Shown here piece after piece: positions 25,037 to 26,494 of a stretch of DNA of 27,558 bases (its first letter is position 1; each line of letters opens with the position of its first letter). This DNA comes from a virus: positions 1 to 27,558 of IMG/VR virus record IMGVR_UViG_3300037502_003250; one strand, given 5' to 3'. Below the pieces are notes generated by a model, which saw nothing but the letters and a program-made list of their open reading frames with translations, made no database searches and was not told the origin of the DNA. The translations under genes and the position numbers were made by a program.

Positions 25037-26494
25037 CTATTCTAGCTCCCGTCCGCTATTTTCTTTGTGGCGTCGGTATGGCCCCGGAGCGCTGGCCGAA
25101 AGGAATCGACCCTCTGCCCCTTGGCGTAGCCTTGCAATCGCCTCGGGTGCTTGCTTGGCGACCGGTACGATGTACTCGCTGGCATCCCGCAAGGTGATCC
25201 CTAGCGAGTCTGCAATCTCGCAGCACGATTCGATTTCTGCACCGGTCCACTCTAGGGCAGTCAGTTCCTTGATCGCCTGGGTATCAGTGTGCCCAAACTT
25301 CTTTGCATACAAGGCCCAAATCGCCTTGCGTTCCGCTGCGTCCGGAAGATCGAAGAACCACGTCCCGAGCTTGAAACGTCGCTTTAGTTCAGGCGGTAGA
25401 TCGGTCAGGCTGTTGCACGTTGCAATCCAGAGCGTTTCCCCACCGCTGATCGCATCGATCACCTTTAGCGCCTCGCGTATCTGACCTTCGGACTGACCGA
25501 CCAAGGATCCTTTTGTCCCGCCAAGGTCAAGCTGAATCGTCGGTATCCCGCCCTCGGATCCTGCGGCCTTAGCGACCGCTGACTTCGCAGCCCCAGGAGG
25601 CCCTACGAGGATCGTTCCCGTGGCTCGATGATCCTGCATCCAGGATAACAACTGGCCTAGCTGATCCTGGGAAACCCCGCTGGTATCGGATCCCGCAGCC
25701 CCGAGCGACTTTTCGATTTCGTCCACGAATACGATCGCCTTCGGCTTCTGCTTGCCCTTCAGCACCCGTCGCATAAAGGTCTTGTACTGATCGCAACCGC
25801 CGATCTGATCGAACCCGCCCTTTTGCGTGACCACCCGGAGGCCCGGCGTTTGGTCGATCTTTTTGCGTTTAGACTCCCAAAGCTGATCTACGTCCAAGCC
25901 CTCTTTGCTCAGCGCGAGGCAGGCGAGATTCTCGGCACAAAAGGCCGTTACACCGATCGCAGCCGTAGCACCGCTGTCCAGGGTTTCATCATCGGCTTGC
26001 GTCTTGCCCCACTCGCAAACGTTCTGCACGATCCCTCGAAGCTCGTCGGCCCTAGGCAACGGATCATCGAACCGCACTACGTCGTGGATCAATTCCGCTG
26101 GCAACGTTGCCACGCCCAGGAGCACCAATGTTTTCTTGCTGGCCTTGAATTCGTCGCGGAGATTCCACACGGCTTGCACCGCGCGAGGGTCGTCCATGAA
26201 TAGGTGGGCGTTGCAAACCACAACTATCTGCCTGCGTGATAGCTCTTTCAGGTCAGACAGGAAGTTCACCATCGACCCCGAATAGTCCTGCTGCGGAAGG
26301 GCCGAAATCCCCTCGACTGCCTTCGTATCCGACAGTTCGGAAAACGCACCCCTGATCACATCCCACACGATCACGCCAACCGGATCCTCGATCCCGCTTA
26401 CCTGCTCTCGGATCGTCCGGATCGTCGCTGCCGGGTCGCCGGTCGTTACCGCCACTAGAGGAACACCAGCCCTAAAAGCCTTGGAAATCTGCAT
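25037..26494 (-). CDS. Ycf46-like AAA ATPase with permuted Walker order (485 aa)
   Basis: The N-terminal 150 residues follow the Ycf46 layout (IVVVCNAHLFM, LRDEFKASKKTLVLLG, LPAELIHDVVRFDDPLP). The ATPase half is unusual. The Walker B-like AIVFVDEIEKSLG (253-265) and the GVSQDQLGQLLSWMQ block come before the Walker A-like VGPPGAAKSAVAKA (297-310). Then LWIATCNSLTDLPPELKRRF gives sensor 1 and the arginine finger. The usual order is A then B. Walker A also has Ala in place of the last Gly (GAAKS). An in-frame family-1 repeat encodes VATLPAEL in a conserved strand. Confidence 0.85.
   Translation of the reverse strand: MQISKAFRAGVPLVAVTTGDPAATIRTIREQVSGIEDPVGVIVWDVIRGAFSELSDTKAVEGISALPQQDYSGSMVNFLSDLKELSRRQIVVVCNAHLFMDDPRAVQAVWNLRDEFKASKKTLVLLGVATLPAELIHDVVRFDDPLPRADELRGIVQNVCEWGKTQADDETLDSGATAAIGVTAFCAENLACLALSKEGLDVDQLWESKRKKIDQTPGLRVVTQKGGFDQIGGCDQYKTFMRRVLKGKQKPKAIVFVDEIEKSLGAAGSDTSGVSQDQLGQLLSWMQDHRATGTILVGPPGAAKSAVAKAAGSEGGIPTIQLDLGGTKGSLVGQSEGQIREALKVIDAISGGETLWIATCNSLTDLPPELKRRFKLGTWFFDLPDAAERKAIWALYAKKFGHTDTQAIKELTALEWTGAEIESCCEIADSLGITLRDASEYIVPVAKQAPEAIARLRQGAEGRFLSASAPGPYRRHKENSGRELE
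26099..26112 (-). repeat. Family-1 palindrome inside the AAA ATPase gene
   Basis: Exact copy, in the VATLP frame, where Ycf46-type proteins normally have a conserved LPxEL. Confidence 0.9.

Follow-up and report, generated by a model that had tools for sequence, protein, structure and literature searches.

The locus and its gene neighborhood

The window, that is, the whole stretch of viral DNA analyzed here (IMG/VR record IMGVR_UViG_3300037502_003250), spans 27,558 nucleotides and encodes, on the minus strand, a 485-aa protein whose reading frame was confirmed to be open, within a cassette with the gene order AAA, DUF3150, DUF1257, DUF2997 (Table 1). In this protein, residues 253–265 (AIVFVDEIEKSLG) and 275–287 (SQDQLGQLLSWMQ) precede VGPPGAAKS (297–305), in which A303 (25586–25588) occupies the place of the last Walker A Gly, and sensor 1 (IATCNS, 357–362, with ATCN at 358–361) and RRF (372–374), which holds the arginine-finger candidates, come after. 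The motif order, Walker B, Walker A, sensor 1, arginine finger, is the one given in a preliminary description of the sequence, which had also remarked on the missing Gly; both observations hold. Walker A, Walker B, sensor 1, and the arginine finger are all there, and the standard order of A, B, and sensor 1 is broken; AAA+ ancestry follows from homology, and the chain order is what has changed.

Table 1. Features of the ATPase gene and its cassette (window positions; residue numbers refer to the 485-aa protein)
Feature	Positions	Strand	Basis
Ycf46-like AAA ATPase, permuted core, 485 aa	25037..26494	-	full-length relatives 36–83% identical
N-terminal half, residues 1–220, resembling a degenerate AAA module that lacks Walker A	25835..26494	-	AF2 and structure alignment
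Displaced beta3-alpha3 unit, residues 253–292, with Walker B AIVFVDE	25619..25738	-	profile mapping
Walker B, residues 253–259	25718..25738	-	D258 in 90/91, E259 in 91/91 permuted sequences
beta1-alpha1-beta2-alpha2 unit, residues 293–353	25436..25618	-	profile mapping
Walker A GPPGAAKS, residues 298–305	25580..25603	-	K304 in 91/91
beta4 and sensor 1, residues 354–362	25409..25435	-	N361 in 91/91; AF2
Arginine pair R372-R373, arginine-finger candidates	25376..25381	-	R373 in 91/91
DUF3150-like helical partner, 301 aa	24055..24960	-	iterated profile, 1.7e-85
DUF1257 (Ycf35-like) partner, 141 aa	23546..23971	-	Pfam PF06868, E 1.5e-5
DUF2997 small protein, about 60 aa	23106..23288	-	iterated profile, E 3.9e-23

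By its sequence, the window protein is best classed as a Ycf46-like member of the AAA family, with the topology as the new part: its top matches in BFVD are named ycf46, and the association with DUF1257 (Ycf35) and DUF2997 is present. No NCBIfam model came near its cut-off against the window protein. Between 9251 and 20033, the window has ordinary phage genes: the terminase large subunit (9251–10714), a helicase (16058–17659), two ParB-like proteins (12626–13273 and 18079–18960), and an Erf annealing protein (19128–20033).

The cassette accompanies ATPases of both orders, in phages, plasmids, and bacteria. A DUF3150-like neighbor, identified with an iterated profile started from an annotated plasmid DUF3150 protein (L021; Pfam E 1e-8), was found in 85 of 91 permuted and 61 of 79 standard loci, DUF1257 in 76 and 74, and DUF2997 in 62 and 73, respectively. 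No described function for the combination of AAA, DUF3150, DUF1257, and DUF2997 was found in the open-access literature; in cyanobacteria, DUF2997 and ycf35 (DUF1257) adjoin the ferredoxin gene fed7 (PMC4284462). The window's DUF3150-like protein also matched a podovirus major capsid model of NCBIfam, but weakly (E 8.4e-5, far short of the cut-off) and probably by chance.

Exchange of two internal blocks

The Pfam AAA model (PF00004), which like phrog_8638 is of standard order, matches the window protein with 57.9 bits (cut-off 21.2), the match being split into two stretches. When scanned alone, residues 242–293 align to model positions 51–96 (E 3.6e-5) and residues 293–353 to positions 2–53 (E 3.8e-7). 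The same inversion is seen with phrog_8638, where the beta3-alpha3 block maps to positions 365–406 and the beta1-alpha2 block to 307–364. Because each displaced block matches Pfam AAA singly and at inverted positions, the unusual motif order is well beyond chance, and the separate scans against the two models show both blocks to be complete, with only their order inverted.

A profile built from ten standard-order relatives delimits the rearrangement. On this profile, window residues 253–292 fall on positions 317–356 and residues 293–353 on positions 254–315, and permuted proteins match it in four blocks arranged 1-3-2-4 (for example, positions 8–244, 317–356, 254–315, and 361–502 along one protein). 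Returning the two middle blocks computationally to the standard order restores one continuous match and lifts the best-domain score from a mean of 112 to one of 302 bits, with a gain in all 73 testable sequences (10 more were left unparsed by the simple motif rule); un-swapped L011 matches end to end with 353 bits. These end-to-end matches, together with the BFVD hits, uphold the earlier assignment of the protein as Ycf46-like. An independent alignment of standard-order sisters, searched with a second program against 20 whole contigs, gave the same pattern (e.g., 3–164, 232–273, 169–230, and 274–393).

The N-linker and the stretch from beta4 to the lid are unmoved, and the exchange is limited to two internal blocks. 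Classical circular permutation was accordingly rejected, since the domain ends stay put and only these two blocks trade places. Segment profiles found a single copy of each block per protein: among 253 classified matches, there was no duplicate and no duplicated intermediate of the B-A-B or A-B-A type, and a second Walker B after Walker A was absent from every classified sequence, in agreement with the earlier statement that none lies between Walker A and sensor 1; in the window protein, a standard Walker B was looked for after residue 305 and not found. No standard-order paralogue was seen in the same phages across 20 contigs; one of these, G012, holds one further weak AAA match.

Structure prediction, which the preliminary description had proposed as a check, is in line with the profile results. 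The AF2 model of the window protein (pLDDT 91.7, pTM 0.80) was computed from 68 permuted sequences with no standard-order ones in the input; AF2, knowing AAA folds, could favor the canonical sheet. Its predicted elements run E253-257, H260-267, H274-288, E292-297, H304-315, E319-322, H332-350, E354-360, H368-373, and E378-380, whereas the standard-order sister L180 gives the normal order: E193-197, H204-215, E219-222, H234-249, E252-256, H275-290, E295-301, and E319-322. The elements of the two models pair one to one, with similar lengths but in swapped order, and the predicted loops at the new junctions, from alpha3 to beta1 and from alpha2 to beta4, are three residues each. In the AAA fold, the sheet order is 5-1-4-3-2, these strands begin at one edge, and beta4 has beta1 and beta3 on its two sides; right-handed beta-alpha units allow reconnection of this kind. 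The predicted order of strands and helices, the lengths of these elements, and the confidence of the model agree with a 5-1-4-3-2 sheet and an intact ATP site. Taken together, the 1-3-2-4 block match, the gain on un-swapping, and the predicted strand order substantiate the suggestion of an internal permutation of the fold.

The N-terminal half (residues 1–220) was predicted to consist of alternating strands and helices, and the tandem AAA proteins p97, Rix7, and NVL are the best structural matches of the permuted model and the standard-order control alike. This shared preference points to a degenerate AAA module in the N-terminal half, unrelated to the swap, and Ycf46-type proteins may, by these models, have two AAA domains in tandem, the first of them dead. 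The Foldseek match to tandem AAA proteins was rejected as evidence of permutation, given that the standard-order control prefers them too.

Relatives, origin, and sequence constraint

To place the window protein among its relatives, we gathered sequences from IMG/VR, using protein and alignment queries, and from GenBank phages, plasmids, and genomes. Among the matches listed, at least 163 were permuted, at least 90 were of standard order, and none was intermediate, with at least 90 distinct permuted sequences (the window excluded) and at least 79 distinct standard ones; these counts do not represent natural frequencies. The identity of the permuted relatives to the window protein ranges from 83% down to about 36%, and in all of them the two blocks abut at the same junction, with 0–1 residue between the matches. 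Relatives with the same order, which the preliminary description had recommended looking for, are thus plentiful. They include gp103 of the cultured Tunturiibacter podovirus Tunturi_3 (PP885686; 36% identity over 97%), an isolate described previously (PMC11924767).

Across 396 Acidobacteriota genomes, full-length permuted genes were present in two assemblies (L255 and L256); the remaining matches were fragmentary, and the fetched ones with both blocks were of standard order. L255 sits in a 389-kb contig amid genes that, judged by eye, resemble replication, recombination, and SNF2-helicase genes. On this contig (L275, 14239–15744), the permuted ATPase gene lies near primase-, SNF2-, and methyltransferase-like genes, and the region is likely an integrated mobile element.

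In a tree restricted to sequence outside the swap (104 rows below about 62% identity; quick search, root for drawing only), a branch with SH-aLRT 100 sets the 70 permuted rows apart on one side, where they adjoin a cluster of 14 standard-order phage proteins. Judged by this topology, the data fit a single origin of the swap.

Residues K304, S/T305, E259, G301, G333, N361, and R373 are invariant in all 91 permuted sequences, the window included, and 90 of these have D258. At the place of the last Walker A Gly, 42 of the 91 permuted proteins have Ala, 42 have Gly, and 7 have Ser, compared with Gly in 79 of 79 standard ones; from this contrast, the loss of the Gly is a lineage-level change separate from the permutation. 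A tie between the missing Gly and the swap was rejected, 42 of 91 permuted proteins still having it; MCM and MoxR ATPases likewise include Walker A loops with Ala at this place. Pairwise comparison with close relatives gives a dN/dS of about 0.06–0.14 overall, with the lowest values, in most comparisons, in the two swapped blocks; the values are rough, as synonymous sites are near saturation. The arginine-finger region (25343–25393, residues 368–384) reads LPPELRRRF.LGTFFFDLP in the permuted group and LPPEF.RAERFDG.FFVDLP in the standard group, the permuted version looking two to three residues shorter.

Proposed mechanism and comparison with known systems

The observations are best explained by a functional AAA+ ATPase whose core carries an internal segment swap, the ATP site being intact and formed by its own chain, a reading to which we assign a probability of about 0.85. 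The beta3-alpha3 unit of the active AAA domain of a tandem-AAA phage ATPase would have moved ahead of the beta1-alpha1-beta2-alpha2 unit, most simply through a partial tandem duplication and a later complementary loss, resulting in the chain order beta3-alpha3-beta1-alpha1-beta2-alpha2-beta4-alpha4-beta5. Each unit would form a beta-alpha layer with its strand starting at the same sheet edge, so that loops of about 3 residues could reconnect the units and rebuild the 5-1-4-3-2 sheet and the ATP site in one chain. The permuted core would retain a normal three-dimensional site and hydrolyze ATP; the ATP-site part of this mechanism is well supported by residue conservation. The protein would combine a degenerate first AAA module with an active second one, the arginine finger being supplied by the neighboring subunit. 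More tentatively, at somewhat less than even odds, the protein might act with the cassette proteins as a ring-shaped remodeller, with the target presented by the DUF3150 and DUF1257 partners and with DUF2997 as a further putative partner.

The location of the ATP site could be different if the protein formed a domain-swapped ring, in which the beta3-alpha3 unit would complete the site of the neighboring subunit in trans. Neighbors in AAA+ rings do pack closely, this unit has shifted along the chain, and the sequence data are compatible with such a ring; however, the confidence of the monomer model, in which 3-residue loops bridge the new junctions, and the flanking of beta4 by both beta1 and beta3, which makes intrachain placement easy, render such an arrangement unlikely. 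Slightly less likely still is a catalytically dead protein retained as a binding factor or scaffold, with the swap and the Walker A change as signs of decay. Although A303 replaces the usual Gly, and Ala or Ser does so in about half of the permuted group, the other half has the full Gly loop, the Lys, Ser/Thr, Glu, sensor-1 Asn, and one Arg are retained in 91 of 91 sequences, and in most comparisons constraint on the protein is strongest in the swapped blocks.

As to origin, the order could be fluid and the swap could have arisen several times rather than in a one-time event, given that the tree is quick and its midpoint root serves for drawing only, but the position of all permuted proteins on one side of a fully supported branch (SH-aLRT 100), the lack of intermediates, and the common junction make recurrent origin quite improbable. 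Mis-assembly, a frame error, or chance resemblance of motifs, which the window taken alone would be insufficient to dismiss, was rejected and is hardly credible, because the same junction recurs in independent copies, namely, in two bacterial assemblies and in 90 further sequences of separate sample origin, among them that of an isolate genome. With the segment-swapped core as the preferred reading, we further consider it probable, albeit with less confidence, that a natural, active AAA+ ATPase with Walker B before Walker A has become fixed throughout a broad group of tailed phages, which would be, within our searches, the first report of such a topology.

Few folds conserve their order as strictly as AAA+ domains do, and the A-B-sensor order is taken for granted by family models, motif searches, and structure aligners; the Pfam and PHROG models break the permuted proteins into pieces, and in annotations they go by the bare name "ATPase". 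A segment-swapped AAA+ domain found in nature would imply that beta-alpha units can be reshuffled within the domain with the catalytic residues kept, and this very conserved fold appears to tolerate rearrangement while retaining these residues and its usual partner genes. The swap thereby offers a natural experiment in which folding order can be set against function, for which Tunturi_3 gp103 provides a cultured phage protein to test, and also draws attention to the widespread AAA-DUF3150-DUF1257-DUF2997 cassette.

No report of a permuted AAA+ domain was found in the open-access literature; the passages on circular permutation retrieved from open-access papers concern methylases, peptidases, phage DNA, and alignment benchmarks. 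Whole-protein homology links the window protein to the Ycf46-like ATPases of phrog_8638 from phages, plasmids, and bacteria, such as the "AAA-ATPase" of Pseudomonas phage SM1 and that of a mycobacteriophage, with which it shares the degenerate N-terminal AAA-like half, the FDxIGG linker, the LPPEL and WTGAEIE blocks, and the DUF1257, DUF2997, and DUF3150 neighbors. In those proteins, however, Walker A precedes Walker B (block A, 307–364; block B, 365–406). The best solved relatives, by sequence and fold, are Cdc48/p97, Rix7, and NVL, both AAA domains of which align piecewise but have the standard order, with the permuted-group profile aligning out of register; among the matches listed for this profile against solved chains, there was no one-piece match. 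The anti-phage ATPase IetA is similar in the AAA core but falls far below the family cut-off and has different partners; its profile matches the standard-order sister in one piece and the permuted protein in the C-terminal part only. Reordered motifs within the P-loop NTPase fold have a precedent in the circularly permuted GTPases RsgA/YjeQ and YlqF. These are whole-domain circular permutations of TRAFAC GTPases, whereas in the window protein two internal AAA+ units are exchanged and the domain ends remain fixed.
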